Source of the DNA: a virus
IMG/VR virus record: IMGVR_UViG_3300035138_000009
Span: 1 to 35,311 of that record
Reading direction: 5' to 3' (one strand)
DNA: 35,311 bases
The notes under the pieces are model-generated. The model was not told where the DNA came from. It saw only the letters and a list, made by a program, of their open reading frames with translations, and ran no database searches. Of the stretch, positions 2,964 through 35,180 are shown one piece after another; within the stretch, counting starts at the first letter, position 1, and each line of letters starts with the position of its first letter. A program made the translations under genes and the position numbers.

Positions 2964-2984
2964 TCTAAATTTGGTCATAAAAAT

Positions 2985-3018
2985 AGCCCCTCAGCCAAAA
3001 GGCTAGGGGCTTTCTGTT
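2985..3018. terminator. Bidirectional intrinsic terminator
   Basis: AGCCCCT pairs with AGGGGCT and AGCC with GGCT around an AAAA loop, with one bulged C. It is followed by TTCTGTTT on the plus strand, and on the minus strand the stem is followed by TATTTTTATG. It lies between convergent genes and would stop both the early transcript and the late minus-strand operon. Confidence 0.9.
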
Positions 3019-3034
3019 TGCCCTGAGTGTTATA

Positions 3035-3283
3035 TCACCTACGGATAAGGAACTCGACGAAGGCTACGATGGCCGCGCCGACAAAAGTTCCGATGCTTCC
3101 TATAAAGCCAAAGAATTTCTTATCTCTTTTCTCCAAGACAACAATTCTACGCTCGTTACTAGCTGATAGGACATAGGCATGATAGGTCTGCCGAGTGTTG
3201 AACTCTAGGAGTTCTCGGTCGTCCATCCTTTTTATTCTATCCTCAAGTTCCATGTCGCTGAGGAACTCTAATCCGTTAGGCAT
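3035..3283 (-). CDS. Small membrane-anchored protein, XhlA-like layout
   Basis: 82 residues. An amphipathic, charged N-terminal helix (LEDRIKRMDDRELLEF) and a coiled segment ending ERRIVVLEKRDKKFFGF lead into one C-terminal transmembrane segment of about 18 residues (IGTFVGAAIVAFVEFL) and a final RR. This order is that of XhlA/hemolysin-type phage proteins, which cooperate with holins in lysis, but I see no sequence signature that proves it. The ATG at 3283 follows AAGGAG by seven bases; the ATG at 3316 has no ribosome site. It is the last gene of the late operon, a common place for lysis functions. Confidence 0.75.
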   Translation of the reverse strand: MPNGLEFLSDMELEDRIKRMDDRELLEFNTRQTYHAYVLSASNERRIVVLEKRDKKFFGFIGSIGTFVGAAIVAFVEFLIRR

Positions 3284-3440
3284 ATCCGTTCTCCTTGGCG
3301 CATTCCACATGGGCACGTTCTAGGTAAATGGTGGTTCCTTTGGTGATATGCGCCCACACATATTTCTCCCCTGTCTTTATAGGCTTAGGGCAGAAGCAGC
3401 AGTTGAATTTCCTCCATGCTGTTCTTTCCTTGTTCCCCAC
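3276..3440 (-). CDS. Small zinc-binding protein (CxxC...HxxxC)
   Basis: 54 residues from a GTG. The core reads CCFCPKPIKTGEKYVWAH and later RAHVECAK: two close cysteines, then a His and Cys four apart, the ligand spacing of a treble-clef or PARP-type zinc knuckle. The GTG lies about 15 bases from GGAGG, which is rather far; an ATT one codon earlier is closer. An overlapping ATG in another frame would give only a 21-residue peptide. Its TAA overlaps the start of the next gene, which supports a real gene. Confidence 0.55.
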   Translation of the reverse strand: MGNKERTAWRKFNCCFCPKPIKTGEKYVWAHITKGTTIYLERAHVECAKENGYA

Positions 3441-3459
3441 AATCGTCCATGTTGTCCTC

Positions 3460-23334: not shown

Positions 23335-24631
23335 GCTTCAACCACCTATCCAATATTTTGTTCCTTGCCTTACCTCCAAAAGTAAGACTTTCAATTGGCC
23401 CATCTGACCGTTTCTGTTGCGTTGGAAAACCAAACCTGGACACAACTCCCCATACCGCGTATCTCATCGCATCGACGGCGTGGTCATTGTACTTGACTGG
23501 CTCAGGCAGAAAGGCATCGTCCTGGCCTGTTGCTTTCGGGTTGGCCTTCCAGTGGTAATTCTGAATCTCTTTTATCAGATTCACGCTTGCTTGCGGGATA
23601 ATCAACTTCTGTCGCTTGCAAAGGTCTATGCTCTCTTTGACATCCTTGATGCCTTCAAGGGCAGTATAGCCAGCTTGCGAAATCTCCTTGACCGCCTGTT
23701 TGCTGGATGGGTCTCCATAGATGTCTCCACGTGGAACGTGGCCAAGAGCCTCAATTATGTCGGCGTTTGTCCAGTTCTTCTTGTAAAAAACCTCGTTGAC
23801 GTAGGTTTTATCCTGAAAGGTGTGGACTTTTATCAATGTTGATATAGAGGAATAGCCAAAGTCCAACCCGTAGGCCCAGTGGCCACCTTCGATTTTGGGC
23901 AATTCAGGCACGATTTCGTAGTTACTATATATCTTACCCTCAAGCCTGCCCCAAAGTCCAAGGGCATATACACGGTAAAAACCTTCATCCTGCGTCGCAA
24001 GGTCTTCAATCAGCTTCGTGTAGGCGGAATCAAGATATGGGTTGTCAGTGTATGTAGAATGAACCACCTCTGTCTCTGGTTCTAAGCCTAAATAGGTCTT
24101 TCCCTTTGGCTCTGACCCTGTAAGTTTCAGTGGAATCCAGCCAGTTGAATCACTGGGGTTCAAACTGAGGATAATCTGGTTAACTTCTCCTGATTTCACA
24201 GGCCCACGGAGACGCAGTTTCAAGATGATGTAGTCTTCCCAAGAAATCTCGTTGGCTTCTTCAACCCAGATGTAGTTAAAGTTGGTAGATTTTATCTTGT
24301 CTGACTCGTCGATGGAGGCAAACCAGATGATGTTTGACCCGTGAACATAGTTGTTGGCCGTCTTGTTGTGGTTCTCTTCCTTGTAGAGGCCGTATTGTTT
24401 CAATAGGTCAAGGATAAGACCCATCGCCGTCATACGAAGGGCAGGAAAAGTGTGTCGGAACACGCCAAAAACCTTGTTTTCTTGCGTTATCAGCCTCTCA
24501 ATGATAAGCTGGGCAATGGAATGGCTTTTGGACGAACCGGCCCCACCGACGTTGACGATGGTGCTAGCCTTCGATTGCCTGTTAAGGGCAAATATATTGG
24601 TATAGCCGATAGGCTTGAGTTCTTCGTCTAT
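23327..24631 (-). CDS. terL: Terminase large subunit (TerL), likely AUA start
   Basis: 434 residues from ATA. ATPase: Walker A GGAGSSKS at 29-36, Walker B region IWVEE at 121-125, coupling segment LSLNPSD near 155. After LGLWG at 224-228 comes the RNase H-like nuclease with acidic residues D257 (GLDFGYS), D307 (YGDPSS) and D383/D387 (DHAVDAMRY). It packages DNA into the prohead through the portal. The first standard start is GTG 24463, after the Walker A motif, which would leave a protein without ATP binding. ATA at 24629-24631 lies eight bases after GAGGAG, just before the conserved beginning (IGYTNIFALNRQ). In-frame TGA closes the frame 15 bases upstream. Length and layout then match PBSX-type TerL. 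Confidence 0.9.
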   Translation of the reverse strand: MDEELKPIGYTNIFALNRQSKASTIVNVGGAGSSKSHSIAQLIIERLITQENKVFGVFRHTFPALRMTAMGLILDLLKQYGLYKEENHNKTANNYVHGSNIIWFASIDESDKIKSTNFNYIWVEEANEISWEDYIILKLRLRGPVKSGEVNQIILSLNPSDSTGWIPLKLTGSEPKGKTYLGLEPETEVVHSTYTDNPYLDSAYTKLIEDLATQDEGFYRVYALGLWGRLEGKIYSNYEIVPELPKIEGGHWAYGLDFGYSSISTLIKVHTFQDKTYVNEVFYKKNWTNADIIEALGHVPRGDIYGDPSSKQAVKEISQAGYTALEGIKDVKESIDLCKRQKLIIPQASVNLIKEIQNYHWKANPKATGQDDAFLPEPVKYNDHAVDAMRYAVWGVVSRFGFPTQQKRSDGPIESLTFGGKARNKILDRWLKRG

Positions 24632-24734
24632 CGTAAGGTCTCCTCAGTACTGCTCCCCTCCGACGCTTCTTGTACTGTTCCTTTCCCAGCCCATAAGGGC
24701 CGCACCCTATTTAGTAGGTTGTCACCCTATTTAA
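24632..24734 (-). promoter_or_regulatory. terL leader with strong SD before AUA
   Basis: 103 bases between the Cys-rich gene and terL. It has a direct repeat TAAATAGGGTG (two copies within 30 bases), a GCCC-TTAT-GGGC hairpin, and a 16-codon ORF, ATG to TGA, in the same frame as terL, whose TGA overlaps the SD GAGGAG (24640-24645). Coupling of the short ORF to terL is possible. The short ORF has no ribosome site of its own that I can see. Confidence 0.5.
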
Positions 24735-24986
24735 TTAACTTTCATGTTTACATGAGCAGGTTGAATAAGCAGTTGTGTCAGAACTATTGTCGGAACTTAC
24801 ATTCCACCAAGTATTGTCATAATATGGATTATAAGTTATCGTGTAAGGATAGTAAGGAGAGTAAACGTATTGCGTTTTCTCCGACCATTCCTTGCCACAA
24901 TCTAAGCAATATGGCACTCCACACTTTTTACACAGCTTAATATTCTCATGGTCACAGCATCCTTGATGATTATGCTGATGGGACAT
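24735..24986 (-). CDS. Cys/His-rich zinc-binding protein
   Basis: 83 residues. A His/Cys-rich N-terminus (SHQHNHQGCCDHENIKLCKKCG) continues to YCLDCGKEW; Cys18, Cys21, Cys27 and Cys30 give CxxC-x5-CxxC, a zinc ribbon. The C-terminus is Tyr/Asn/Ser-rich and low-complexity (YVYSPYYPYTITYNPYYDN) and ends CSCKHES. Similar His/Cys-rich starts occur in uncharacterised phage and bacterial proteins. ATG after AGGAGGGTAAC. Between TerS and TerL, so perhaps a packaging accessory. Confidence 0.8.
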   Translation of the reverse strand: MSHQHNHQGCCDHENIKLCKKCGVPYCLDCGKEWSEKTQYVYSPYYPYTITYNPYYDNTWWNVSSDNSSDTTAYSTCSCKHES

Positions 24987-25028
24987 GTTACCCTCCTATT
25001 TTTGGTTCCTTTTTCCTAAATGAATGGT

Positions 25029-25092
25029 ATTATACCACCCTGGTCAATAACTCTAGATTTCCACGCCTGATGAAATTGAGCTAGGCGTGAAA
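25029..25092 (-). promoter_or_regulatory. Extended -10 promoter with upstream inverted repeat
   Basis: On the minus strand TGGTATAAT (ending at 25029) is an extended -10 element with no good -35. Just upstream, TTTCACGCCT and AGGCGTGGAAA (within 25058-25092) form an inverted repeat with a 13-base centre. It would drive the Cys-rich protein, terL and the genes after them, and the repeat is a candidate operator. The word CTAGGCGTG recurs near the rightward promoter at 26213. Confidence 0.5.
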
Positions 25093-25114
25093 TTTTAGGC
25101 ACAACAAAATTTCC

Positions 25115-25252
25115 CTAGACTTCGACCGCTTGCACGGTTCCAGTCTTGGAAACTGTATATCCTTCCTTGGGCCTGAACTTAGGGCATTCCACATAGAACG
25201 TGGGGTCTTGCTTACAGTGTTTCGTGCAGGCTTGGCAGATATGGTTAATCAT
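25115..25252 (-). CDS. Small Cys-rich zinc-knuckle protein
   Basis: 45 residues. Four cysteines (HICQACTKHCKQD...YVECPKF) give C-x2-C-x3-C-x9-C, a short zinc knuckle. ATG overlaps the TerS stop (TAATG) after GAAGGAGAG. Too short to recognise; its close coupling to TerS suggests a packaging or DNA-binding accessory. Confidence 0.65.
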   Translation of the reverse strand: MINHICQACTKHCKQDPTFYVECPKFRPKEGYTVSKTGTVQAVEV

Positions 25253-25761
25253 TACTCTCCTTCAGGTAACTCCCTTATATCCTTTGATTCTAGTTCAATG
25301 GTCATATCTGAATCAGGCTTATCCAACAGGGTCGTCGCCGGAACGAACAACAGTTTTATGGGCATCTCACCCTCGATTTGGTGTTTCTCGGCGACCTTCC
25401 CGTCAATTCTATCCAAAATCTCTTTGGTGGCAACCATGTTCCCACGCTTGGCTTGGGCAATTAGGGCAAGTAATATGGCCCTCACGTCCTCGGGATGTCG
25501 CCGCAGGTGCTTCTTTAGCTCGTTGCTGAGACTTAGCTTCGGCTCCCTTATCCCCGTGGGATTCCCCGACTGTCCTGGTTCCCACGCATTGTCTTTTATC
25601 TCATCGGGCAGGGTCTTGTTCGGCCTCTTGTGTGGTGACTTGTGCCTGGGTTTTATGAACGGCACGTCGACGTCGGGGTCAAGGTCTTTTGGATATGGGT
25701 CTTCTTTATTTCCTTGTCTGGTTATCTGTGCCCAAATTCGGTCGTGTTCGCTTTTTTCCAT
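25252..25761 (-). CDS. Terminase small subunit candidate, DUF5681-like
   Basis: 169 residues. The middle has the DUF5681 pattern WEPGQSGNPTGIREPKLSL followed by a helical part (NELKKHLRRHPEDVRAILLALIAQAKRGN) and KEILDRIDGKVAEKHQIEG. DUF5681 proteins commonly lie next to phage terminases and probably recognise DNA. The first 50 residues are charged and proline-rich, probably disordered. It is the first gene of the leftward operon, two genes from TerL. No good ribosome site is seen before its ATG. Confidence 0.8.
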   Translation of the reverse strand: MEKSEHDRIWAQITRQGNKEDPYPKDLDPDVDVPFIKPRHKSPHKRPNKTLPDEIKDNAWEPGQSGNPTGIREPKLSLSNELKKHLRRHPEDVRAILLALIAQAKRGNMVATKEILDRIDGKVAEKHQIEGEMPIKLLFVPATTLLDKPDSDMTIELESKDIRELPEGE

Positions 25762-26212
25762 AGGGTTTCAAATAGAGGGAAGATTTTGCTGACGGGGTTT
25801 ATGTTAAGTTGAATTTTGGTATTTTCTATGTGGGTCAAGGACAACCCCAATTAATGATTGCATGCCCAACCCACTTCCTTTACACGCGCACGCGCGCCCG
25901 TATAGATTCGCTTGCATACACGCACACACCCACGCGCACATCCATCCCCTCTAAGTATATTATACCATTGCCAAGCGATACCATGTCAAGCTGACCTGCA
26001 GCCAATAACGGCTATTCCCACTCGCTAGCGATGATTCATTGCGTTCAATCACGGCCAATCATATCTATTCTAACACATTCGTACTAATACACGGCTAGAT
26101 AGGCACTAAAGGGCAGGCCACAACAGTCAATTCCGTGGACATCTGGCAATTTTTATAACATTTTCGTGCCTGGGTTAGAACATCTGTGTTAGGTCTAGGC
26201 GTGGTGGGGGAC
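25762..26212. other. Divergent intergenic region, origin or control region candidate
   Basis: About 450 bases without a credible gene, between the leftward late operon and the rightward early arm. It holds alternating purine-pyrimidine tracts (25881-25897 and around 25914-25940, mostly CA/CG steps) that can form Z-DNA, several short inverted repeats (AATAACGGCTATT, CGCTAGCG) and the word CTAGGCGTG before the -35 at 26213. A minus-strand TTGACC near 25838 lacks a convincing -10. A replication origin or packaging site could lie here, but I see no clear iterons. Confidence 0.5.
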
Positions 26213-26241
26213 TTGACAGGCTCTAACAGGTATGATATGCT
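26213..26241 (+). promoter_or_regulatory. Sigma70-like promoter P1
   Basis: TTGACA, 17 bases, TATGCT. It reads into the 69-residue gene at 26363 through a 120-base leader. CTAGGCGTG lies shortly upstream of the -35. Confidence 0.75.
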
Positions 26242-26300
26242 GTGTAGTGTCAAGTGATTGACGCCTGTGGAAACGCCAGTACCTTAAAAATTGAATATGA

Positions 26301-26345
26301 ATCTGACTCAGTGACTGACTAGGGGATAGCTCTCAGGACATAAAT
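26301..26345 (+). repeat. Left arm of inverted repeat around the 69-residue gene
   Basis: CTCAGTGACTGACTAGGGGATAGCTCTCAGGACATA is the near-exact reverse complement of the segment downstream of the gene (26575-26616), which reads CTCAGTG-GCTAGCTAGGGGATAGCTC-AG-ACATA on the opposite strand. Differences are a few substitutions and two short gaps, while the core CTAGGGGATAGCTC is identical. Confidence 0.85.
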
Positions 26346-26362
26346 AAAGCTAAGGAGCTATC

Positions 26363-26572
26363 ATGAAAGCATCAGGAATCAAGGTAACAGTCAAGCTGGA
26401 GGTCAACGGCAAGGCTAAGACATACCAGATGAACCTCACCGGCGAACCAGTCAAGAGCAAGTCGGGCAAGATGACTCTGGCACACTTCCAGCCAACCAGT
26501 GGCAATCAAGTCATCAAACCGTTTTCCAAGCTATACATAGATACCGCAGCCATAGGAAAGGAAAAAAGCTAG
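26363..26572 (+). CDS. Small conserved-looking protein between inverted repeats
   Basis: 69 residues, basic, beta-rich first half (IKVTVKLEVNGKAKTYQMNL) and Lys/Ser-rich turns (EPVKSKSGKMTLAHF). Start after TAAGGAGCTATC. It is the first gene downstream of promoter P1 and is enclosed by roughly 40-bp inverted repeats, so its mRNA can fold into a very long stem with the gene in the loop. Its codon use (AAG, GGC, CTG, CCA) looks more regular than that of the neighbours, suggesting high expression. Function unknown. Confidence 0.7.
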   Translation: MKASGIKVTVKLEVNGKAKTYQMNLTGEPVKSKSGKMTLAHFQPTSGNQVIKPFSKLYIDTAAIGKEKS

Positions 26573-26574
26573 CA

Positions 26575-26616
26575 TCTATGTCTGAGCTATCCCCTAGCTA
26601 GCCACTGAGACAAATT
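26575..26616 (-). repeat. Right arm of inverted repeat around the 69-residue gene
   Basis: Partner of 26301-26345 (see there). It starts three bases after the stop codon and is followed by about 65 bases without a gene. There is no U run, so it is not simply a terminator. Confidence 0.85.
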
Positions 26617-26682
26617 GAATAAGGGAGTGTGATGCCTATGCCCCATGATAAGCAATAGGATAGCAATTAGAGGGAGGTAGCC

Positions 26683-26859
26683 ATGTTTAACCCAAACACG
26701 CCCTGGGCACGTGGTTTGGTTAATCTAAACCAGAGTAGCCAAGAGCGCCGGAAAAAGTATCAATTTGCCCGTAATAGAGGGAGCAATTCAGCTTGGGCCA
26801 GGCACCTTAGAGACTGGCCGTGGTCAAAGATATACCGAAAGTATGGGATTGCCAAGTAA
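26683..26859 (+). CDS. Small basic hypothetical protein
   Basis: 58 residues, strongly basic and helical, with RNRGSNSAWARHLRDWPW and IYRKYGIAK. The A-R-x-L-R-D-W pattern recalls short phage and plasmid proteins of unknown function. ATG eight bases after AGGGAGG. Followed by a strong GGAGGAGG for the next gene. Confidence 0.65.
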   Translation: MFNPNTPWARGLVNLNQSSQERRKKYQFARNRGSNSAWARHLRDWPWSKIYRKYGIAK

Positions 26860-26874
26860 ATAGGAGGAGGCATT

Positions 26875-26970
26875 GTGGCAAAAGCTAAAATACAGAGAGC
26901 TAGACAGCGAGAGGCAACAAAAATGCACGCCCTATATTATTGGATGCTAAAGCATATATTTATAGCTTGA
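26875..26970 (+). CDS. Very small hypothetical protein
   Basis: 31 residues from a GTG four bases after GGAGGAGG. A basic N-terminus (KAKIQRARQREATK) precedes a hydrophobic aromatic segment (MHALYYWMLKHIFIA), so it may associate with the membrane. The stop is followed at once by GGAGG of the next gene. Spacing supports translation; length makes it uncertain. Confidence 0.45.
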   Translation: MAKAKIQRARQREATKMHALYYWMLKHIFIA

Positions 26971-26982
26971 GGAGGCAACACG

Positions 26983-27138
26983 ATGAAATTTTATGAGCCT
27001 AAAGGTAAATTACCACCAACTTGCATCTATCGTGTCCATCCAACACGATTGAATGCTCTAGAGACACCTGCCCCAAGCATATTTAGAGAGGAGGTGACCG
27101 TCTATGTTATAGCAAACAAGACGTTTAGCAGGAACTAG
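26983..27138 (+). CDS. Small hypothetical protein
   Basis: 51 residues beginning MKFYEPKGKLPPTCIYRVHP and ending EEVTVYVIANKTFSRN. A strand-rich, small globular domain is plausible. ATG seven bases after GGAGG. Last gene before promoter P2. Confidence 0.55.
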   Translation: MKFYEPKGKLPPTCIYRVHPTRLNALETPAPSIFREEVTVYVIANKTFSRN

Positions 27139-27158
27139 CCGTGAACTAGGCACAAAAC

Positions 27159-27188
27159 TTGACACGACCCGTGGCCTAGTGGTAAGAT
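27159..27188 (+). promoter_or_regulatory. Sigma70-like promoter P2
   Basis: TTGACA, 18 bases, TAAGAT. It lies in the gap between two small genes, reading into the 44-residue gene at 27206, whose TAGGAGG follows closely. Confidence 0.65.
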
Positions 27189-27205
27189 GATACTAGGAGG
27201 ACGAC

Positions 27206-27340
27206 ATGCCCTACTGCTATATTGTAATAGACAAGTTGGGCCGGAAACGGATAATAAAAGTTAAGAGGGAGGATGTTGGGAATGATAAGCCTACTATGCG
27301 ACAATCCCGAACAGGCCGCCAACAACAGGCGACGTGTTAA
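27206..27340 (+). CDS. Small basic hypothetical protein
   Basis: 44 residues, basic: YCYIVIDKLGRKRIIKVKRED, then a polar Arg/Gln-rich tail (MRQSRTGRQQQATC). ATG after TAGGAGGACGAC. Its last 59 bases overlap the next gene in another frame, which has its own ribosome site; one of the two may be shorter than given. Confidence 0.5.
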   Translation: MPYCYIVIDKLGRKRIIKVKREDVGNDKPTMRQSRTGRQQQATC

Positions 27341-27491
27341 AGAAGGATACGCGAACGATTATTACGTGTCCCAGGCCCGTGCGGTGGCCCAATGGCCGAT
27401 GGGTGAGCCTGCCCCGAGGTCGGTCGTTCTAGGTGAATTGCCCAGAACGTCGGGGGAGAAACGAAGTAAAAGATATTTGGAGGGAGAATAG
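27282..27491 (+). CDS. Hypothetical protein
   Basis: 69 residues. NNRRRVKEGYANDYYVSQARAVAQWPM is helical and basic, the tail LPRTSGEKRSKRYLEGE charged. ATG 27282 lies ten bases after GGGAGG; an earlier ATG (27273) is adjacent to it. No family recognised. The stop is seven bases before the -35 of promoter P3. Confidence 0.6.
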   Translation: MISLLCDNPEQAANNRRRVKEGYANDYYVSQARAVAQWPMGEPAPRSVVLGELPRTSGEKRSKRYLEGE

Positions 27492-27498
27492 GCACAAT

Positions 27499-27528
27499 TT
27501 GACAACCACCTAGACCTAGTGCTATAAT
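27499..27528 (+). promoter_or_regulatory. Sigma70-like promoter P3 of the amidoligase operon
   Basis: TTGACA, 18 bases, TATAAT: the best consensus match in the window. It is followed 20 bases on by AAAGGAGGTGAAC and the amidoligase ATG, implying a short leader and strong expression. Confidence 0.85.
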
Positions 27529-27548
27529 GAGACTGAAAGGAGGTGAAC

Positions 27549-29135
27549 ATGGACGAGACAATAGTCTGCGAGGATTGTGGCGCAGAAGTTGACCTCGATG
27601 ATTCTACCAAGATAGATGGTAGATTCCTCTGTGACGACTGCGCTAGTCATTGGTATAATTGTGAATCTTGTAGCAACTGGTTATATGAGGATGACGCACA
27701 CGACTACCACGGCGAGATTCTATGCCAAGAGTGCTATGACCAACACTTCCAAGAGTGTGGGTGTTGTGGGGAGACCTATGACTATGACCACTACTCTCGT
27801 AGAGGGAGCTGTTGGGGTGACTTCTGCCCAGACTGCTCAAACGACCACTTTATCTGTGACAACTGCGGTGAAACCTACCACGTGGACGAATACGGGGGGG
27901 ACGGATACTGCGAGGACTGTTATCCCCGTAGACATAGTGGTATAATAAAAGACTACCATGAAGGGGCAGACGACACCAAGTTCTTGCCTACCTTCAAACA
28001 GCAAGAACTCTACCTCGGCATGGAACTGGAAACCGACGGCTACCACGATTGGAGAGAATCAGCCGAGGACGTTATGACACTATCACCTGATGAGGAATAC
28101 TTCTGGTTGGAGGGGGATTGTTCTCTAGACAGGGGCTTCGAGTTAATCACCCATCCGGCGACCTTAGAATACCATCTGACCAAGTTTCCGTGGGATAAGA
28201 TTAGCCAAGTCTTGAGCAGGCAGCTAGGAGTAAGAGCCGAGAACTCTCCCCACGCAGCCATTCACATTCACATCAGCCGTGACTTCTTTGGTAGGAACTA
28301 CAGGTCGTCCAGTCTAAAGATGATTTACTTGGTAGACAAGTTCAGGCAGGAGTTCTTGACCACCGCCAACACCTCGGACTACCTAGCCATGAGAAGTGCC
28401 AATAGCCATTGTCGCAATGATTTTGACAGGATTTTGGACTTGGGGAAGGTTAGAACCTATTGGGACACCTTCCGAGGCGAGCGATATAGTGCCGTCAACC
28501 TATATTGCAAAGAAGACACCGTGGAACTAAGGTTCTTCCGCAGCACCTTAGACGTCAACAAGATTCTAGCCTACCTAGAGCTAGCCGACTACCTAGCAAG
28601 GATGGCCAAGAATATCACCTCTGCCCAAATGAAAAAAGTGTCCTGGCAAGGGATAGTCCGAGGGGCAAGGCAATATCAACACCTGCCCTCAATCATAGTT
28701 CCTAAGAAGATTAGGCGACCCCAACGTCAGAGAAGGCCAAGAGCAGATAGGGAAGAAGGCCCAATCCGCGTCGGCGACCACGTGAGAATCTGCGTTCCCG
28801 AAGACCAAGAAACCGAGTTCACTCGGGGAGGAGCTACCAACGACCAGATAGGGGTAGTTCAGGAGATTGGCCCTTTCTACCATGATGGAATGGTCTATTC
28901 GGGTCACGTTGTTGTCCACTTCGATGGCCCTCAAGGATTTGGCTCTGGCTACACAGGGAGATGGCATGGCCTAGCCGAGGAGTTAGAGATAGTCGAACGG
29001 CCAACAAGGGAAACGGCCAGACAGGGGGAAGTCCACGGTGGCACGTTGACCCGAGAGCATATAGAGAGGGCTAGGGATATAATGGTGTCAATACCACCCG
29101 TGGAGCGAACTATTAGATGGAGGTGGGGCGAATGA
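27549..29135 (+). CDS. Zinc-ribbon amidoligase (amidoligase_2-type carboxylate-amine ligase)
   Basis: 528 residues. Residues 1-125 hold zinc ribbons with CxxC pairs at 7/10, 28/31, 38/41, 59/62, 93/96, 103/106 and 121/124 plus C70-G-C-C. Residues 150-375 match the amidoligase family (glutamine synthetase/GCS-like fold): YLGMELETDG with E159 and E161 as metal ligands, EGD...GFELITHP near 188-203, AIHIHIS with H239 and H241, and ELRFFRSTLD at 326-335. Residues 405-483 are a small beta-barrel-like domain (VGDHVRI, GVVQEI, HVVVHFDG). The enzyme would use ATP to form an amide bond; substrate unknown. ATG after AAAGGAGGTGAAC. Its stop overlaps the racemase start. Zinc ribbons may bind a protein or nucleic acid acceptor. 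Confidence 0.9.
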   Translation: MDETIVCEDCGAEVDLDDSTKIDGRFLCDDCASHWYNCESCSNWLYEDDAHDYHGEILCQECYDQHFQECGCCGETYDYDHYSRRGSCWGDFCPDCSNDHFICDNCGETYHVDEYGGDGYCEDCYPRRHSGIIKDYHEGADDTKFLPTFKQQELYLGMELETDGYHDWRESAEDVMTLSPDEEYFWLEGDCSLDRGFELITHPATLEYHLTKFPWDKISQVLSRQLGVRAENSPHAAIHIHISRDFFGRNYRSSSLKMIYLVDKFRQEFLTTANTSDYLAMRSANSHCRNDFDRILDLGKVRTYWDTFRGERYSAVNLYCKEDTVELRFFRSTLDVNKILAYLELADYLARMAKNITSAQMKKVSWQGIVRGARQYQHLPSIIVPKKIRRPQRQRRPRADREEGPIRVGDHVRICVPEDQETEFTRGGATNDQIGVVQEIGPFYHDGMVYSGHVVVHFDGPQGFGSGYTGRWHGLAEELEIVERPTRETARQGEVHGGTLTREHIERARDIMVSIPPVERTIRWRWGE

Positions 29136-29875
29136 TAGGTGTCATTGACTCAGGAGTCGGCGGCCTATCCGTGATGCCCATGATGGTCAAGGCCATGCCG
29201 AGGGAAACCTTCATCTATCTCGGTGACAATGCCCGTTTCCCCTATGGACAGAAGCCACCGAGGGCGTTGAAAGATAATGCCTTAGAACTGTCCGACTACC
29301 TTCACCGACGGGGTGTCAAGGCCATCGTCCTCGCCTGTGGGACGTTAAGTTCCTACGCTTTAGAGGTTATAGCCAAAGAGTTCCACTTGCCCGTGTTCGG
29401 TACAATCAAAGCGACATCAAGGGAATCAGATAGGCGAGATGGTAACAAGATTGTTTGGGCCACACCAGCGACGATAGACAGCTATGCCTTTCAGCGAGAG
29501 TTAAAGGGCAAAGTCAAGTATCAGTCGTGCCCTCATCTAGCCAAGTCCGTGGAACAAGATTCCAGAGTAAGTGAAGTAAACGACAACGCAGACGTCATCA
29601 TCATGGGTTGCACCCACTACTCTTGGCTAGACATCGGCGATAAGGTCAAGGTGGATGGTTCATTTGAACTAAGCCGAGAGGTTCGGCTGACCTTGAGGGA
29701 CGGCGGGTTGCTAAGTAAACAGAAGGAGGGAGATAATGAGTTTCTATTCACGGGGGACATAACCAAGCCACAATACCTAGTCTCAGGGCTATTCCCAACA
29801 GCCAAAGTAAAAAGAGTAAACTTAAAGGAGGAGTTATCAGATGTGCCTGATAGTAGGCAAACCAAAAGGAATTAA
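29132..29875 (+). CDS. murI: Glutamate racemase (Asp/Glu racemase family)
   Basis: 247 residues, slightly shorter than cellular MurI (about 265). IGVIDSGVGGLSV at the start is the MurI signature with catalytic Asp6 and Ser7; YLGDNARFPYG (29-39) follows. Catalytic cysteines are Cys69 (ACGTLSS) and Cys160 (GCTHY, with His162). In most MurI the first reads CNT-A-S, here CGT-L-S, so the substrate-binding Asn is replaced by Gly. It interconverts L- and D-glutamate, normally for peptidoglycan. The ATG overlaps the amidoligase TGA (ATGA) after GGAGGTGGGGCGA; its end overlaps the amidotransferase by 35 bases. The tight overlap suggests a common pathway. Confidence 0.92.
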   Translation: MIGVIDSGVGGLSVMPMMVKAMPRETFIYLGDNARFPYGQKPPRALKDNALELSDYLHRRGVKAIVLACGTLSSYALEVIAKEFHLPVFGTIKATSRESDRRDGNKIVWATPATIDSYAFQRELKGKVKYQSCPHLAKSVEQDSRVSEVNDNADVIIMGCTHYSWLDIGDKVKVDGSFELSREVRLTLRDGGLLSKQKEGDNEFLFTGDITKPQYLVSGLFPTAKVKRVNLKEELSDVPDSRQTKRN

Positions 29876-30695
29876 TTTACCCAAAGACAAAGCGTTAAAA
29901 CAATACTTCAACTACCACCCCGACGGCTTCGGCATCAGTTTCCAGTTCGACGGCAAGGTGAGGACTATCAAAGGGGCAATGACCGACAAGGAGATGTTCA
30001 AGCTCATCTCATTGGTTAGGAGGATAATCAGCCCGTTGAAGGTCAAAGACGTGGACATGGTTCTCCAATGGCGTAGGGCAGTCACAGGCTCAATCTGCCG
30101 CCGATATTGCCATCCGTTCCCAGTCAGCCGCAACCAGGTTGACCTCGATAGCCTTGACGTGATGTCCGAGGTAGCTCTAGCTCACAATGGTGTCATATGG
30201 GAGTATAACCAACAGTCAAACTACTACTATGGCTACAAAGATGGGTCAGACCGTAGTGACATCAACGATGCCCAGGAGTTCATCAAGGACTACGTGGTTG
30301 ACCTCGGCGACAACGTGTTCAACCCAGCCGTGGGGAGATTAATAGAGTCGCACACGTATAGTAAGTTTGCCCTTCTGAACCAAGAGGGAATAACCTATAT
30401 CGGCGACTTCGAGCAGGACACAGACGGGTGCTGGTACAGCAACTTCAACCATAAGCCTACCCCTGTGACCAAGAAGATAACCATAAGTGAGGGCAAGAAG
30501 TCCACGGCTTTAGCTCTTATGAACAGAAGAGACATCTATGACGACTACGATGTCCTCGGTGGCGTCCGCTGTCAATTCTGCCGGTGCTATGCCCCTGAAC
30601 TATACATTATGCCTGACGATGATAGCCTGTTATGTGCCAGGTGCTTCGAGACATTTGCTGGATATAGGCCAAACTACGACGACTTGGCGTTTTAA
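29841..30695 (+). CDS. Class II glutamine amidotransferase-like (Ntn hydrolase) with C-terminal zinc knuckle
   Basis: 284 residues. After Met, Cys2 is the Ntn nucleophile (MCLIVGKP). Further marks of the class II GATase fold are HPDGFGI (26-32), WRRAVTG near 77-83 and LAHNGVI (113-119), which carries the oxyanion Asn-Gly. The last 40 residues add two CxxC pairs (CQFC, CARC), a zinc knuckle not usual in this family. Class II enzymes release ammonia from glutamine or hydrolyse amides. No synthase domain is attached, so the amidoligase may be its partner. ATG after GGAGGAGTTATCAG, inside the racemase gene. Confidence 0.88.
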   Translation: MCLIVGKPKGINLPKDKALKQYFNYHPDGFGISFQFDGKVRTIKGAMTDKEMFKLISLVRRIISPLKVKDVDMVLQWRRAVTGSICRRYCHPFPVSRNQVDLDSLDVMSEVALAHNGVIWEYNQQSNYYYGYKDGSDRSDINDAQEFIKDYVVDLGDNVFNPAVGRLIESHTYSKFALLNQEGITYIGDFEQDTDGCWYSNFNHKPTPVTKKITISEGKKSTALALMNRRDIYDDYDVLGGVRCQFCRCYAPELYIMPDDDSLLCARCFETFAGYRPNYDDLAF

Positions 30696-30705
30696 GGAGG
30701 ATAAC

Positions 30706-30885
30706 ATGGAAAAGGAACTGAAAGATTACACTTTCCAGGAGTTGGTTGACCAATTCTATGGGGTACTAATAATGTCTTTGGCCTCAGCCAATGCCCCTAA
30801 ATCAGTAATGTGGAGAGCTATGGACACGGCTATCCGATGGAGAATTGAACGTGACGTTGAATCTGGATTGTTAAGAAGGAGGTGA
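30706..30885 (+). CDS. Small helical hypothetical protein
   Basis: 59 residues: KELKDYTFQELVDQFYGVLIM, then WRAMDTAIRWRIERDVE, two amphipathic helices with basic end LLRRR. ATG after TTTAAGGAGGATAAC. It closely follows the amidotransferase and may belong to its operon. No family recognised. Confidence 0.7.
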   Translation: MEKELKDYTFQELVDQFYGVLIMSLASANAPKSVMWRAMDTAIRWRIERDVESGLLRRR

Positions 30886-30888
30886 ACC

Positions 30889-31080
30889 GTGGAAAAGTTA
30901 AAAGTAACCTTAACCGTGGAAGTTGCCCACCAAGACCACTTCTTGATGGACTTGTATGACTTGCTAGACTTCTGGTGTCTTGGCCGCTGGTTTGCCCGAC
31001 GGGAGGCTGTCACGGAGGACGATGAGCAGGAAGCCGTGATAGATGCCTCGGGCGTCGGGGATGACGAGGATTGGGTGTAG
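30889..31080 (+). CDS. Small acidic hypothetical protein
   Basis: 63 residues. A strand (KLKVTLTVEVAHQ), a Leu/Asp-rich helical middle (LMDLYDLLDFWCLGRWFARRE) and a very acidic tail (EDDEQEAV...DDEDWV). GTG start after AAGGAGGTGAACC, three bases after the previous stop. Last gene before a structured intergenic region. Confidence 0.65.
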   Translation: MEKLKVTLTVEVAHQDHFLMDLYDLLDFWCLGRWFARREAVTEDDEQEAVIDASGVGDDEDWV

Positions 31081-31084
31081 AACA

Positions 31085-31165
31085 GGGGGTGTAGGAGTTT
31101 GAAAATCGAACCTAATAATTCTACACCTGCGACCCCCTCCCTATATATTAAGGGTCGCGGTGTAG
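31085..31165 (+). promoter_or_regulatory. Attenuator-like structured region upstream of promoter P4
   Basis: CTACACC-T-GCGACCC (31121-31135) forms a 14-bp stem with GGGTCGC-GGTGTAG (31152-31165), with one bulged T. An earlier GGGGGTGTAG (31085-31094) can instead pair with CTACAC and CCCCC of the same strand, so two folds exclude each other. The stem is followed by GGAGTTTT but not a clean U run, so a terminator is possible but weak. The segment lies between a stop codon and the -35 of P4. Confidence 0.65.
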
Positions 31166-31180
31166 AGGTGGAGTTTTAAC

Positions 31181-31211
31181 TTGACGACAGCCTCTCTGGA
31201 CATGATATAAT
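31181..31211 (+). promoter_or_regulatory. Sigma70-like promoter P4
   Basis: TTGACG, 19 bases, TATAAT. The spacer end TGGACATGA is nearly the same as that of P5 (TGGACATGG). It reads into the four-helix bundle gene with GGGGAGG just downstream. Confidence 0.75.
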
Positions 31212-31228
31212 AATAGGGGAGGTGTATC

Positions 31229-31639
31229 ACGGAACTAAGTTCATTATACCAAGAAGGACTAGAGATTTACAAAGAGTTATATCCAATGCTACCTTTAGGT
31301 TGGATACATTACGACCAATGTACTCGTTCCCTTGGCTCAGTAGTCGCTAACATAGCCGAGGGGGAAGGCCGGAACGTAAGGGAAACTAAATACTATCAGA
31401 TGTTCTTGCTATATTCCCGAGGCTCTGCTTGTGAAACTATAGCATGGCTAGACTGTCTGTTCGTAGAACAACCAGCATTGACGGGTGAACTTTCTATCTA
31501 CCAAGATAGGCTATTAGAGTTAAGCGACAAACTAAAGGTGGCGATAGAGTCCAGACTAGAAGAGATTAGCAAGCCAACATCAGGGCCAGAATATTGGGCA
31601 GAATTAGCCCGAAAGAGGAACAAGGAGCGTGAAATGTGA
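31229..31639 (+). CDS. Four-helix bundle protein (S23/Avd-like), likely ACG start
   Basis: 136 residues in the four-helix bundle family: helix 1 SLYQEGLEIYKELYPMLP, the signature VVANIAEGEGRNVRETKYY, then FLLYSRGSACETIAWLD. Members include 23S rRNA insertion-encoded proteins and Avd proteins that help diversity-generating reverse transcriptases; no reverse transcriptase is in this window. No ATG/GTG/TTG in frame lies before the ATG at 31286, which would remove helix 1. ACG at 31229 sits five bases after a perfect GGAGGT; an ATC one codon earlier is too close. An in-frame stop is 15 bases upstream of ACG. A role in nucleic-acid binding is an inference. Confidence 0.8.
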   Translation, partial: TELSSLYQEGLEIYKELYPMLPLGWIHYDQCTRSLGSVVANIAEGEGRNVRETKYYQMFLLYSRGSACETIAWLDCLFVEQPALTGELSIYQDRLLELSDKLKVAIESRLEEISKPTSGPEYWAELARKRNKEREM

Positions 31640-31992
31640 CCGAAGGTGAAACAATCCGAACAATCAATGGCGTCCGTTGTCGGTGCCAAGACGTTGGCTG
31701 CCCCGACTTCGAGAGGGCAAGACGGAACAGGGAACGGATAGCTAATAAACAATCTGTCTCCGCCTACCTCGCAATAGAGGGGGCATTGAGAGCTACACCA
31801 CGGGGTCGTGCCCTGCCCGCTTGGATTCCTCTTGGAGATTTACCTGTGGTGTCCAAAGAGGACTGGCGGGAGTCTAGTGGTGATGGCTTCGTAGTCGAGG
31901 GACAGGATGAGACTACCACCACCGATGGGGATTTGGAGGACTTAGAAGCCTTGGAAGAGATTGATAGTGATAAAGGAGATGATAATGGGTAA
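31636..31992 (+). CDS. Hypothetical protein with Cys cluster and acidic tail
   Basis: 118 residues. A short Cys motif near the N-terminus (VRCRCQDVGCPDF), a basic helical part (ERARRNRERIANKQ), and an acidic C-terminal half (GQDETTTTDGDLEDLEALEEIDSD). GTG start overlapping the previous stop (GTGA) after AAGGAGCGTGAAAT. No family recognised. Confidence 0.7.
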   Translation: MTEGETIRTINGVRCRCQDVGCPDFERARRNRERIANKQSVSAYLAIEGALRATPRGRALPAWIPLGDLPVVSKEDWRESSGDGFVVEGQDETTTTDGDLEDLEALEEIDSDKGDDNG

Positions 31993-32188
31993 AAGGAAAA
32001 TAGACCCTATGATTGCCCTTAAAATGAGAATCGATGGGGCTACCCTGAGAGATATAGGGAAACATTTTGGCGTGTCTCCAGAGGGCGTTCGTCAATGCCT
32101 ATTAAGGGCAGATAAAACAGCCCAAGATATAGACCGCTTAAAACGGCTGTTGAAGAAGCTAAAATGGTTTTGGGACTTGACAACCTGA
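31985..32188 (+). CDS. Small helix-turn-helix DNA-binding protein
   Basis: 67 residues. MIALKMRIDGATLRDIGKHFGVSPEGVRQCLLRA is a sigma70 region-4 or homeodomain-like helix-turn-helix, with recognition helix SPEGVRQCL. A basic helical tail follows (RLKRLLKKLKWFW). ATG six bases after AAAGGAG. It could regulate the nearby promoters; P5 lies at its 3' end, so autoregulation is possible. Confidence 0.8.
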   Translation: MGKRKIDPMIALKMRIDGATLRDIGKHFGVSPEGVRQCLLRADKTAQDIDRLKRLLKKLKWFWDLTT

Positions 32189-32206
32189 CGGTTGGACATG
32201 GTATAA
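32176..32206 (+). promoter_or_regulatory. Sigma70-like promoter P5 with a dyad in the spacer
   Basis: TTGACA, 19 bases, TATAAT. CAACC-TGAC-GGTTG, a 5-bp inverted repeat, covers the end of the -35 and the spacer and may be an operator. The -35 lies within the 3' end of the helix-turn-helix gene. It reads into the RNase H-like gene. Confidence 0.8.
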
Positions 32207-32224
32207 TATATGTAGGAGAACAAC

Positions 32225-32566
32225 ATGAACGTCTATTGTGATAGCTCCATCCGTGAAGCCTGTGTAGTTGTGGAAGGGCAGGAGCCTACAATCATACCTT
32301 ATGACAAGGTTGTAACCAACAACGTCGGGGAGTACAAAGCGGTAATAGAGGCATTGAACATTGCCAGAAACCGACACCTCAATCAGGTTGTGATTTATAC
32401 AGACTCCCTGTTGGTGGTTAACCAAGTCAGTGGCGAGTGGAAATGTAGGAAACCACATCTCTTGCCCTTCCGCGACCAAGTCAGGAGTTTCTTAGCAACG
32501 AGAGGAGCCAAGTTGAGATGGTGCCCTAGAGAAGACAACCTTGCTGGATTGGTGTTTGATGGATAG
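32225..32566 (+). CDS. RNase H-fold protein (RNase HI-like / RVT_3)
   Basis: 113 residues, shorter than cellular RNase HI (about 155). Acidic residues D6 (VYCDSS), E36 (TNNVGEYKAVIEAL) and D60 (IYTDSLLVVNQVSG) are in the family positions, and WKCRKPHL follows as in the reverse-transcriptase-like RNase H group. The fourth acidic residue, normally in N-x-x-A-D, is absent: the sequence reads DNLAGLV and the protein ends soon after. It could cut RNA in RNA-DNA hybrids, or be reduced in activity. ATG after TAGGAGAACAAC. Confidence 0.85.
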   Translation: MNVYCDSSIREACVVVEGQEPTIIPYDKVVTNNVGEYKAVIEALNIARNRHLNQVVIYTDSLLVVNQVSGEWKCRKPHLLPFRDQVRSFLATRGAKLRWCPREDNLAGLVFDG

Positions 32567-32575
32567 GAGAGAATA

Positions 32576-32764
32576 ATGATTGAGGAAGTCAGAGAAGAAA
32601 TAGCTAGTATGGTTAGGGCTTATGCGCAAGGTTATTTAAAATGGGCGTTGACCATAGGTATTGTAGCACCAGCGTACAAAACAGCGGTTGATATATTAGC
32701 CATCAAAGTAGGAGACAAGACAATAGCACAGCTTATAGAGGAGGCAGAAGGATGGGAGAAATAG
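32576..32764 (+). CDS. Small helical hypothetical protein
   Basis: 62 residues: an acidic helix (EEVREEIASMVRAYAQGY), a hydrophobic segment (WALTIGIVAPAYKTAVDILAI) that may lie in the membrane, and an acidic tail. ATG after GATAGGAGAGAATA. Its end overlaps the next gene by 13 bases. Confidence 0.65.
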   Translation: MIEEVREEIASMVRAYAQGYLKWALTIGIVAPAYKTAVDILAIKVGDKTIAQLIEEAEGWEK

Positions 32765-33168
32765 CGGAATGGGAATCACGTGAAACTGCAGAGGATGTAA
32801 ATAGAATAATGGATAACTGGATATTGAGTGATGAGGCTAGACCAATAAGCGACAAAGTGCTCGCTCAATACAGGGAGGATGAACTATTCCGAGAGAAAGA
32901 CCACGTAGCTGTGTTGTTAGTACAAGCGGGGATGGAAGCCCAGAACAAGGCTACTCTGGAAGGGGTAGTGAGGTGGTTGGAAGATAACAAGTTCATTTTA
33001 GCCCAACTGTTATATGACCAGTACAGAGGCGTTGACGGTAAGTATGTAAAATCAGTGCCTTTAGATGAGTATAAAAATCACGACATTTGGAAAGAGATGG
33101 GCATAAGGTCAAACCAGGCAATCCAAACCATCAAGCAAGAGTTGAAGGAAAGGATAGATAATGGATGA
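32752..33168 (+). CDS. Hypothetical helical protein
   Basis: 138 residues, highly charged and helical (ETAEDVNRIMDNW, LLVQAGMEAQNKATLEGVV, IQTIKQELKERIDNG). ATG after GAGGCAGAAGG within the previous gene; the end overlaps the next start by eight bases. Its ending resembles that of the following gene only in composition. No family recognised. Confidence 0.7.
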   Translation: MGEIAEWESRETAEDVNRIMDNWILSDEARPISDKVLAQYREDELFREKDHVAVLLVQAGMEAQNKATLEGVVRWLEDNKFILAQLLYDQYRGVDGKYVKSVPLDEYKNHDIWKEMGIRSNQAIQTIKQELKERIDNG

Positions 33169-33583
33169 GAAACTGGTGAAAGAAGTAGCCAAGATACCTG
33201 ACAAATACGGCGGGACAATAGGCATCGAAGCGGCCAAGTCGGTTATCCCCCTTATCGAAGCCTCAGTGAAAGCCCAATACGAAAAGCAAATAGAATACTG
33301 GCGAGAGAAGTGCTTTAACGATACCATGTCAGCTAAAAAGTCAGGTTGGGATGACTGCGAGAAGTCTATCAAAGCCCAACTAAAGGCGGAGATTGAGGGG
33401 ATTGAGAACCCATACAGGGATGAAAACATCGAGGAGAGAGTATACGAAGGGTCAATTATTTACAAACAAAAAGGAGTTAATAACCACAGAGACAATATAG
33501 GATGTTGGAGGGAGTTAGCATCTATTTTTGAAGAATGCCGCCAAGCAGTCCTGAAGAAATTGGAGGGTATAACAAATGGGTAA
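33161..33583 (+). CDS. Hypothetical helical protein
   Basis: 140 residues, helical with a coiled segment (ASVKAQYEKQIEYWREKCF) and a later GCWRELASIFEECRQAVLKKLE. ATG after GAAGGAAAGGATAGATA, overlapping the previous gene by eight bases; the end overlaps the next start by eight bases. The repeated 8-13 base overlaps suggest strict translational coupling. Unrecognised. Confidence 0.7.
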   Translation: MDEKLVKEVAKIPDKYGGTIGIEAAKSVIPLIEASVKAQYEKQIEYWREKCFNDTMSAKKSGWDDCEKSIKAQLKAEIEGIENPYRDENIEERVYEGSIIYKQKGVNNHRDNIGCWRELASIFEECRQAVLKKLEGITNG

Positions 33584-33740
33584 CATGGGTTATTGCAGAT
33601 TTGAGAATACCTACCACGACCTAGAATATTGCTGGGAGAATTGGGAAGACCCGCAAGATGAACTCAGTGAATCGGAGAAAAAGTATAGACAGAAGATGGT
33701 TGACCTCTGTAGAGAAATTGCCGAAGAATCACTAGTTTAA
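33576..33740 (+). CDS. Conserved small phage protein, MGNM-x-YCRFENT type
   Basis: 54 residues. MGNMGYCRFENTYHDLEYCWE...LSESEKKYRQKM...LCREIAEE follows a small family widespread in phages (usually MGNMSYCRFQNT) with two conserved cysteines. Function unknown. ATG after GGAGGGTATAACAA. Confidence 0.85.
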   Translation: MGNMGYCRFENTYHDLEYCWENWEDPQDELSESEKKYRQKMVDLCREIAEESLV

Positions 33741-33802
33741 CCGCCCCAATAGTGGTTTGGGAGAGTGATGCGCCCAGAGATATTAAAAAGGATAGAGGGA
33801 GT

Positions 33803-33946
33803 ATGAGAACATTAGACCATAATAAGAAATCAAATATTAAGTGCGAGCACTGCAAGCACTTTTCTGCGGATAGAACTGTATGCCTACTGAAAAACTTAAG
33901 AAAGAATTATTGGAATAGATGCCCTGAGTTTAAATGGGTAAGATAA
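33803..33946 (+). CDS. Small zinc-binding protein
   Basis: 47 residues. CEHCKHF, a later Cys and WNRCPEFKW give four cysteines (C-x2-C-x9-C-x11-C), a pattern seen in small phage proteins ending RCP-x-F-x-W. ATG three bases after AGAGGGA; an earlier GTG has no ribosome site. A short gap of 60 bases before it holds nothing I can name. Confidence 0.75.
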   Translation: MRTLDHNKKSNIKCEHCKHFSADRTVCLLKNLRKNYWNRCPEFKWVR

Positions 33947-33979
33947 AACCATCCTGATATTCCTTAATGGATTGGGAGA

Positions 33980-34084
33980 ATGAAGAAATTATCTAAACTG
34001 GACAGAGAGTTATTAGAAGCGCTGAGATACTTCCGTGTAATATCAATAAAACTGAGTTTGGTAGATGGACACAATAACACTTAA
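33980..34084 (+). CDS. Very small hypothetical protein
   Basis: 34 residues, helical (KKLSKLDRELLEALRYFRVISIKLSL). ATG after TGGGAGA, a modest ribosome site. The frame closes twelve bases before the next gene. It may be real, but its length makes it uncertain. Confidence 0.4.
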   Translation: MKKLSKLDRELLEALRYFRVISIKLSLVDGHNNT

Positions 34085-34096
34085 TCCGGAGATAAG

Positions 34097-34309
34097 ATGA
34101 GAAAGCACAACTATCCTATCCACCGCTTGCCTTTTGAAGATAGACAAGAGAGAGACAAAAGGATAATAAAACTATTCGACCTGGACTATGCCCCAGTAGA
34201 ATTTCACAGTAGATTCAACTTGACCATCTGGGGGGTCTACGAGGTATTAAGAAAGGCGGGGCGGATGAGAGTAGGGCAGAAGAAACGAATGAGAAGGAGG
34301 ATTTATTGA
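34097..34309 (+). CDS. Small helix-turn-helix-like basic protein
   Basis: 70 residues. KRIIKLFDLDYAPVEFHSRFNLTIWGVYEVLRKAG fits a homeodomain-like helix-turn-helix, and the tail GQKKRMRRRIY is strongly basic. Probably DNA-binding. ATG after CCGGAGATAAG; the stop overlaps the ClpP-like start by one base (TGATG). Confidence 0.7.
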   Translation: MRKHNYPIHRLPFEDRQERDKRIIKLFDLDYAPVEFHSRFNLTIWGVYEVLRKAGRMRVGQKKRMRRRIY

Positions 34310-34923
34310 TGCTATATCCAAGACATGACGACAAGGGGAAACTCGTCAATGACGAACAAATGGTGGGGATTCGTGAACATCTAGCTCATCAACATAGAGT
34401 TTTGTTCCTGAGCGGGTCTATCTCAGGGGACACGGAGGCACATAACTTGTTGCTCGCTTATGACTCTTTGAACCACGACCCTATTAAGATTGTGATAACC
34501 TCCCCTGGGGGTGACCTAGATTCGGCGTTCCTATTATATGACACCCTACGGCTGATTAGGTCGCCTATATGGACACTGGGCCGCTACTGTGCGTCGGCGG
34601 CGGTTCTCATTATGGCAGCCGGACAGCAAAGGTTGTTGTCTCCGCACTGTAAGGTGATGCTGCACCTGCCCCAAACTTTGCTTGGTGGGGGGCTGTTCGG
34701 CGCGGGGTTCAAGGAGGAAGACCTGCGAGTTATTCATTCGGAGGCTGCTAAGTATCGTTCTAAGATGGTGGATGCCCTTATAGAATGTGGAGCAACCAAA
34801 TCTGCCGATGAAATAATGCGAGACATCAAGGACGCCGACTTCTGGTTGGAGCCGGAGGAGGCCATCGAGTATGGCTTGGCCGACGGGATAATGACACAGG
34901 AGGACTTGAGGAGGTGGTTTTGA
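34309..34923 (+). CDS. ClpP-like serine protease
   Basis: 204 residues, the usual length of ClpP. The pieces are ISGDTEAHNLLLAYDSL (head), ITSPGGDLDSAFLLYD (oxyanion Gly-Gly), then Ser96 in YCASAAVLIMAAG and His119 in VMLHLPQ, with an Asp at 175/177 (DIKDADFWLEPEEAIEYGLAD). Ser-His-Asp triad order is that of ClpP. It degrades or matures proteins. Phage ClpP-like proteases usually sit beside the capsid gene as prohead proteases; here the gene is in the early arm, next to a DNA-binding protein. ATG after AAGGAGGATTTATTG. Confidence 0.9.
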   Translation: MLYPRHDDKGKLVNDEQMVGIREHLAHQHRVLFLSGSISGDTEAHNLLLAYDSLNHDPIKIVITSPGGDLDSAFLLYDTLRLIRSPIWTLGRYCASAAVLIMAAGQQRLLSPHCKVMLHLPQTLLGGGLFGAGFKEEDLRVIHSEAAKYRSKMVDALIECGATKSADEIMRDIKDADFWLEPEEAIEYGLADGIMTQEDLRRWF

Positions 34924-35180
34924 TGAATCTGAAGGAATTGGTAAAGAATCCGTATCAAGGCAAGAATATGACCTTTTCTGGTGAAGGATTAGCTGAGTTT
35001 GCTGCTAATAAGGGTTTTAATAAAGCCATCGAAGCCTGCCAGGCAGCACATGATAAAGAGATTAAGAAGCTGATAGATTTCTTCTATGAAAGGCAAGTAA
35101 TAAACAGAAAACCAATAACAAAATCTGAGTGGCAATACCTTGAGAAGAATTTGGAGGTAAATAATGATAAGGCTGAATGA
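34923..35180 (+). CDS. Hypothetical helical protein
   Basis: 85 residues: MNLKELVKNPYQGKNMTFSGEG, then helical segments (FNKAIEACQAAHDKEIKKLIDFFYE). ATG overlaps the ClpP stop (TGATG) after GAGGAGGTGGTTTTG. The end overlaps the last gene by 17 bases. No family recognised. Confidence 0.7.
   Translation: MNLKELVKNPYQGKNMTFSGEGLAEFAANKGFNKAIEACQAAHDKEIKKLIDFFYERQVINRKPITKSEWQYLEKNLEVNNDKAE

Follow-up and report, generated by a model that had tools for sequence, protein, structure and literature searches.

Why would a phage carry a glutamate racemase gene between the genes for an amidoligase and a class II glutamine amidotransferase (GATase), and what might the three enzymes make? The locus that raises this question lies in a 35,311-base record of an uncultured virus of bacteria (IMG/VR viral record IMGVR_UViG_3300035138_000009), the whole of which we refer to as the window. 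Profile searches, structure prediction, fold matches, and a diverged locus of the same gene order confirm that the three-gene operon is real, intact, and beyond chance. Pairs of amidoligase and GATase are of an already known kind, and it is the racemase (MurI) in the middle that is new. We tentatively propose, with somewhat less than even confidence, that the trio makes and trims an amide of D-glutamate (D-Glu), most likely altering cell-wall peptides or their precursors. The operon comprises the following features.

27499..27528, + strand: sigma-70-like promoter, TTGACA-N18-TATAAT with TG before the -10 element, 12/12 match
27549..29135, + strand: amidoligase with eight CxxC pairs, an Amidoligase_2 domain, and a low-confidence C-terminal extension (PF12224, phrog_16683, predicted model)
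29132..29875, + strand: glutamate racemase-family protein (MurI) of 247 amino acids (PF01177, TIGR00067, solved MurI structures)
29841..30695, + strand: class II glutamine amidotransferase / N-terminal nucleophile (Ntn) amidohydrolase (motifs and fold; PF13230 below cut-off)

Operon layout and the three protein families

The structural genes of the window are transcribed leftward (the terminase large subunit lies at 23327-24463) and the early-type genes rightward from about 26.3 kb, with the trio at the start of the rightward block. The promoter, TTGACA-18-TATAAT, is the sole 12/12 match in the window, and a TTGACA-N17-TATACT promoter stands upstream of the amidoligase gene in the diverged locus, contig L012. 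The amidoligase ATG at 27549 is preceded by AAAGGAGG; a mechanical open reading frame (ORF) caller begins the gene at GTG 27543 instead. The amidoligase and MurI genes overlap by 4 bases (ATGA) and the MurI and GATase genes by 35 bases, the GATase having its own AGGAGG. An earlier reading of this DNA (hereafter the original prediction) had described these overlapping genes under the best promoter, family marks in each gene, and about eight Cys pairs before the ligase with extra pairs on the GATase, and it had looked to a profile search for likeness of the ligase to ATP-dependent ligases. All of these points are borne out by the evidence given here. A second record, IMGVR_UViG_3300042731_008044 (loci L002 and L004), is identical to the window over 21543-35132 (at least 13.6 kb) and is therefore no independent observation of the trio; it reaches about 700 bases beyond the right end of the window, with sequence absent from the window, which is thus a fragment.

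The amidoligase matches Amidoligase_2 (PF12224) at 26.2 bits, above the Pfam gathering cut-off of 22, and phrog_16683 at 1e-29. The motifs GMELE, HIHIS, and ELRFF are all present. Across 111 aligned relatives, the E, D, S, H, N, and R residues of the amidoligase motifs vary little or not at all. The window protein keeps them (E161, E163, D192, S194, E200, H241, H243, N319, E328, and R330, counted from GTG 27543). Exactly eight CxxC pairs lie at residues 7-124, ahead of the catalytic domain (about 150-390). The predicted model has a mean predicted local distance difference test score (pLDDT) of 75 overall, with a catalytic part of high confidence and residues from 389 on that are unreliable. 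Its best fold match is YbdK (Z 13.2, root-mean-square deviation 3.7, 222 aligned), and it also matches plant glutamate-cysteine ligase (Z 12.8) and glutamine synthetases (Z 11.9 and lower, in the range 10-12). On this model, the protein is of the glutamine-synthetase/glutamate-cysteine-ligase fold and is a predicted carboxylate-amine ligase.

The second protein matches the Asp/Glu racemase superfamily (PF01177) at 47.6 bits, with a cut-off of 31, and solved glutamate racemase structures down to 6e-32. In alignment, the catalytic residues Cys69 and Cys160 are both present, and the substrate-site residues Asp6, Ser7, Tyr38, Gly39, Thr71, Glu141, Thr161, and His162 are kept. Judged by its family and its intact catalytic residues, the window MurI should make D-Glu.

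The third protein reaches 19.6 bits (E 4.8e-4) against GATase_4 (PF13230), below the Pfam cut-off of 23, so that its assignment rests on motifs and fold. All 31 sequences compared share Cys2, Arg78, Asn116, Gly117, and Asp143. The predicted model (mean pLDDT 83) matches EgtC (Z 14.0), GlmS (13.1), and GFAT (12.5) closely together, with EgtC and GlmS about tied. As modeled, the protein is of the Ntn GATase-II fold with an N-terminal Cys and an oxyanion Asn-Gly. At its C-terminus, two CxxC pairs form a zinc-ribbon-like CxxC...CxxC at residues 244-268.

The ligase-GATase pair in other phages and the rarity of MurI

Scanning viral contigs with alignments as queries first yielded 80 ligase loci, followed by 12 and then 46 GATase loci, and the two genes are adjacent or overlapping in 62 of the 75 non-redundant pairs. 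Among named phages, a homologous pair is carried in the same order, close or overlapping, by mycobacteriophage Marvin (gp105-gp106), Methylophilales phage MEP402 (gp06-gp07), and the Podoviridae isolate ctgrD200; Marvin, like the window, has Cys pairs on both ligase and GATase. Unlike in the window, MurI was not found in these three records, and their proteins are 21-27% identical to those of the window. The gene order is not universal, since the GATase lies upstream of the ligase in L097 and L085; two GATase homologues stand near the amidoligase in L097 and L093. The gaps between ligase and GATase in six other loci contain no MurI, and five of them are empty or hold short ORFs only; the gap in L095 holds a frame of 440 amino acids.

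The cassettes of the phiEco32, LUZ24-like, and RIO-1/PSA-HP1 podoviruses resemble the trio in that an amidoligase and a glutamine amidotransferase lie close together in the early non-structural region. Papers on such phage genes present them as a peptidoglycan-modification cassette, with a presumed role in blocking superinfection or preparing for lysis, and credit this prediction to Iyer et al. 2009 and Hardies et al. 2013 (PMC10580990, PMC5498523, PMC11945000). The podovirus cassettes include a second carboxylate-amine ligase, an ATP-grasp enzyme, and a gamma-glutamyl cyclotransferase, whereas the trio has MurI between the pair and zinc-ribbon-like Cys pairs on ligase and GATase. No gamma-glutamyl cyclotransferase (PF06094) was found in the five records of the four phages of this clade (the window and four related records, possibly fragments), and nine control genomes were positive. 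The second ligase family, COOH-NH2_lig (PF14395), had no match in the records of the clade, although no positive control matched either, and no ATP-grasp enzyme was seen among the Pfam-scanned ORFs of the window, a scan that included no family-directed ATP-grasp search.

The pair is nearly always adjacent, as in a synthetase-glutaminase complex, and the glutamine-pocket residues of the GATase (Arg78, Asn116-Gly117, and Asp143) are intact within a GlmS-like fold. Both observations would fit an arrangement in which the GATase frees ammonia from glutamine and the amidoligase uses it to amidate a carboxylate, for example the alpha-carboxyl of D-Glu to give D-isoglutamine. MurT/GatD would be the functional analogue of a trio that amidates a carboxyl of D-Glu in peptidoglycan. 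MurT is a relative of the Mur ligases and GatD is a class I GATase, whereas the ligase of the trio is of the glutamine-synthetase fold and its GATase is of class II. However, the fit of GlmS to the GATase model is no better than that of the hydrolase EgtC, and the ligase is slightly closer to glutamate-amine ligases than to glutamine synthetases. We therefore consider ammonia channeling in the manner of MurT/GatD (described in PMC3267633) to be rather unlikely.

The full trio recurs in contig L012 (IMGVR_UViG_3300015370_000073), where ligase (1450-2625), MurI (2609-3442), and GATase (3423-4301) again overlap and are 33%, 35%, and 45% identical, respectively, to their counterparts in the window. 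Two degenerate patterns from a broad MurI alignment, which miss diverged MurIs, were run against 2.9 million viral contigs and returned only the second record of the window, L012, and two contig-edge copies, a rarity that is only as good as the patterns themselves. In L199 (1-888) and L200 (1-825), MurI lies at the contig start, with a tRNA-like stretch and then phage genes behind it; these copies are probably host DNA at an attachment site, as in a prophage flank. MurI is absent from the other 48 ligase/GATase records, each searched whole, and from 47 of 47 further phage records, and it was found in two of three bacterial genomes, as expected. Matches to MurI in 22 deposited "phage" records were not counted; the five that were opened are bacterial or unannotated, unverified contigs, including a Salmonella contig and Acinetobacter contigs in which murI neighbors gph and glmS. 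Scans for close relatives of the single proteins returned only the identical second record and, for the GATase, contig L005. A literature search of incomplete coverage found no report of a phage glutamate racemase or of the trio. Phage MurI is almost absent elsewhere, and both of the phage MurIs found occupy one slot between the same two genes. The gene order that the original prediction expected to see in other phages is thus very widespread for the pair, whereas the full trio is seen in this phage and L012 only.

A proposed D-glutamyl amide and its likely target

The position of the racemase between ligase and hydrolase, the glutamate-acting folds matched by the ligase, and the glutamyl-removing fold matched by its partner together suggest a glutamyl amide. 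We envisage an early-type phage module that would make and trim such an amide. MurI would convert host L-Glu to D-Glu, the amidoligase would activate a glutamate carboxylate with ATP and join it to an amine, probably in a gamma-glutamyl-like linkage, and the Ntn enzyme would either cleave the amide made by the ligase or supply ammonia for an amide. D-Glu is familiar chiefly as the gamma-linked residue in the stem peptides of peptidoglycan. Given the supply of D-Glu by MurI and the fact that gamma-D-glutamyl is the normal stem-peptide linkage, we infer that cell-wall peptides or precursors would be the most likely acceptor, and the purpose might be, for example, to block superinfection or to prime the wall for lysis. 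The zinc ribbons may hold ligase and hydrolase together, or they may place both on the target. The EgtA/EgtC system of ergothioneine biosynthesis, which like the trio combines a glutamate-cysteine-ligase homologue with a class II Ntn amidohydrolase, serves by analogy as a precedent for a glutamate-acting ligase with a glutamyl-removing partner, EgtC being the enzyme that removes the glutamyl group (PMC9103826). It differs from the trio in that other ergothioneine genes were not recognized here, and the GATase is about 16% identical to EgtC.

Several findings weigh against this proposal. First, in L005 and L013, sister phages of the same clade, the ligase gene overlaps the GATase gene with nothing between, and the trio is known only from this phage (plus its identical second record) and the diverged L012. 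As the pair occurs without MurI in the sister phages and nearly everywhere else, phage-made D-Glu is not essential to the basic reaction, and the substrate in MurI-less phages may be L-Glu or host D-Glu. The pair thus does not need MurI, and the D-Glu-derived conjugate of the original prediction is a reasonable conjecture. The same sister phages would fit a MurI that acts independently of the pair, as a modulator of DNA gyrase or as a source of D-Glu for growth of the host wall, with its position being incidental. Some MurIs do inhibit gyrase, and other gyrase inhibitors are phage-encoded (PMC10886550). Yet the racemase catalytic residues are retained in both phage MurIs, and the occurrence of MurI in the same slot of two diverged phages, when it is otherwise almost absent from phages, makes an incidental position unlikely; an independent role is in our view improbable.

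Second, the window MurI scores 132 bits against TIGR00067, below the curated equivalog cut-off of 146.65, and from the catalytic Cys69 onward it reads CGT, where most MurIs have CNT (Asn to Gly). Both features could mark a racemase homologue that has drifted from glutamate and epimerizes some other amino acid, in which case the conjugate would be built from a different D-amino acid. We hold this to be very unlikely, given that CNT is preserved in the L012 homologue, which clears the cut-off with 181.6 bits, and that CGT is also present in three of the bacterial MurIs compared. For the latter reason CGT is no proof of lost activity, and the notion that it renders the window MurI dead was dropped.

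Third, the eight zinc-ribbon-like Cys pairs hint at a macromolecular partner, for which a small-molecule ligase would have no obvious need. Ligases with at least three CxxC pairs accompany GATases with at least two (46/15 vs 3/11, Fisher p 2.7e-4, kinship ignored), and because the loci are related the significance is less than this p value implies. It is on this statistic that the shared docking put forward in the original prediction now stands. The same chemistry, performed by the trio or by the pair, could be directed at another target: glutamate (perhaps D-Glu) would be attached to nucleic acid or to a protein of host or phage, the zinc ribbons would dock the ligase on that macromolecule, and the Ntn hydrolase would take the tag off again. 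The co-occurrence above expectation of eight pairs on the ligase with two on the GATase is consistent with such a tag, as is the presence of the depupylase Dop and the Pup ligase PafA among the weaker fold matches of the ligase, although matches this weak (E 0.03-0.2) are expected of any enzyme of the glutamine-synthetase fold. MurI points to the wall instead, and D-Glu is not known to have a common role in the modification of proteins or nucleic acids. On balance we regard a macromolecular tag as unlikely.

Finally, the published peptidoglycan role of the phage cassettes, which agrees with a cell-wall target, is itself a prediction. We nevertheless retain the D-Glu amide as our working proposal. 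Its more specific form is a phage-encoded conjugation in which the phage would make its own D-Glu, a zinc-ribbon ligase of the glutamine-synthetase fold would attach it to an amine of wall or protein, and an EgtC-like enzyme would edit the product, a scheme that we put forward as possible but with greater reserve. If this scheme is true, it offers an initial clue to the substrate of the phage ligase-GATase pair, which is very widespread, occurs in very different phages, and has a product that has so far only been guessed. The inserted racemase is an unusual natural hint as to that substrate, and it makes D-Glu a testable candidate. If MurI feeds the ligase with D-Glu, then three purified proteins allow a direct test of the cell-wall hypothesis, and an effect of the pair on peptidoglycan during infection could be demonstrated.

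The history of MurI bears on how the trio arose. In the ligase and GATase trees, the window, L005, and L012 form one supported group (100/97-99) with L013 outside. Ligase trees group the window with L005 (85-90), and a grouping of the window with L012 is not quite rejected (approximately unbiased test, p-AU 0.06); in the small GATase tree, window and L012 are joined at 67/48. Support for a grouping of the two phage MurIs is 87/86, subject to a long-branch warning, and the window amidoligase itself lies on a long branch (1.73 vs 0.75 for L005). These trees would allow one gain of MurI followed by loss in L005, or one gain in the lineage of window and L012, and two independent gains in the same slot may also have occurred; the trees do not settle the choice between a single and a double gain. 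The window and L012 differ to a similar degree in ligase and MurI (33 and 35% identity), which fits shared descent. Gly193 of the D-G-S motif of the amidoligase is Cys in the window, Val in L012, and Gly in L005 and L013, with Gly in 96 of 111 relatives and other residues in 15. A link between this change and the presence of MurI, with two cases only, is suggestive at best.

Other genes of the window

No DNA similarity to deposited phages was found for the window, and a PADLOC run on it returned no defense match. As to the host, there was no isolate relative, and distant ligases in Bacillota and Nocardia were all that a genome scan returned. Beyond the trio, the following genes were recognized.

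543-971: LAGLIDADG endonuclease-like ORF, upstream of the DUF4406 gene
968-1351, + strand: DUF4406 gene (PF14359, 30.8 bits)
2568-2963, + strand: Dam-type DNA N6-adenine methyltransferase (PF05869, 62.6 bits)
31286-31639, + strand: 23S rRNA-intervening-sequence (four-helix bundle) protein (PF05635)
31636-31992, + strand: small protein
32225-32566, + strand: small RNase H-like protein (PF13456)
34306-34923, + strand: ClpP-family serine protease (PF00574, 90.9 bits)

The DUF4406 gene is present as the original prediction claimed, but its suggestion of a modified DNA base as the product of the operon has no support. Some 25 kb separates the operon from the Dam methylase and DUF4406 genes, which are at the opposite end of the record, and none of the profiled ORFs of the window was recognized as a base-hypermodification gene. 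With no adjacent gene in its support, the nucleotide-modification reading of the operon was rejected, and the earlier interpretation as a whole is partly supported. The ClpP-family protease gene lies among the rightward early genes, away from the structural ones, and the 23S rRNA-intervening-sequence protein is an unusual phage gene. Apparent homologues, recognized by eye, of the small RNase H-like protein and of the small protein at 31636-31992 lie downstream of the GATase gene in L005, which suggests conserved synteny in this phage lineage.

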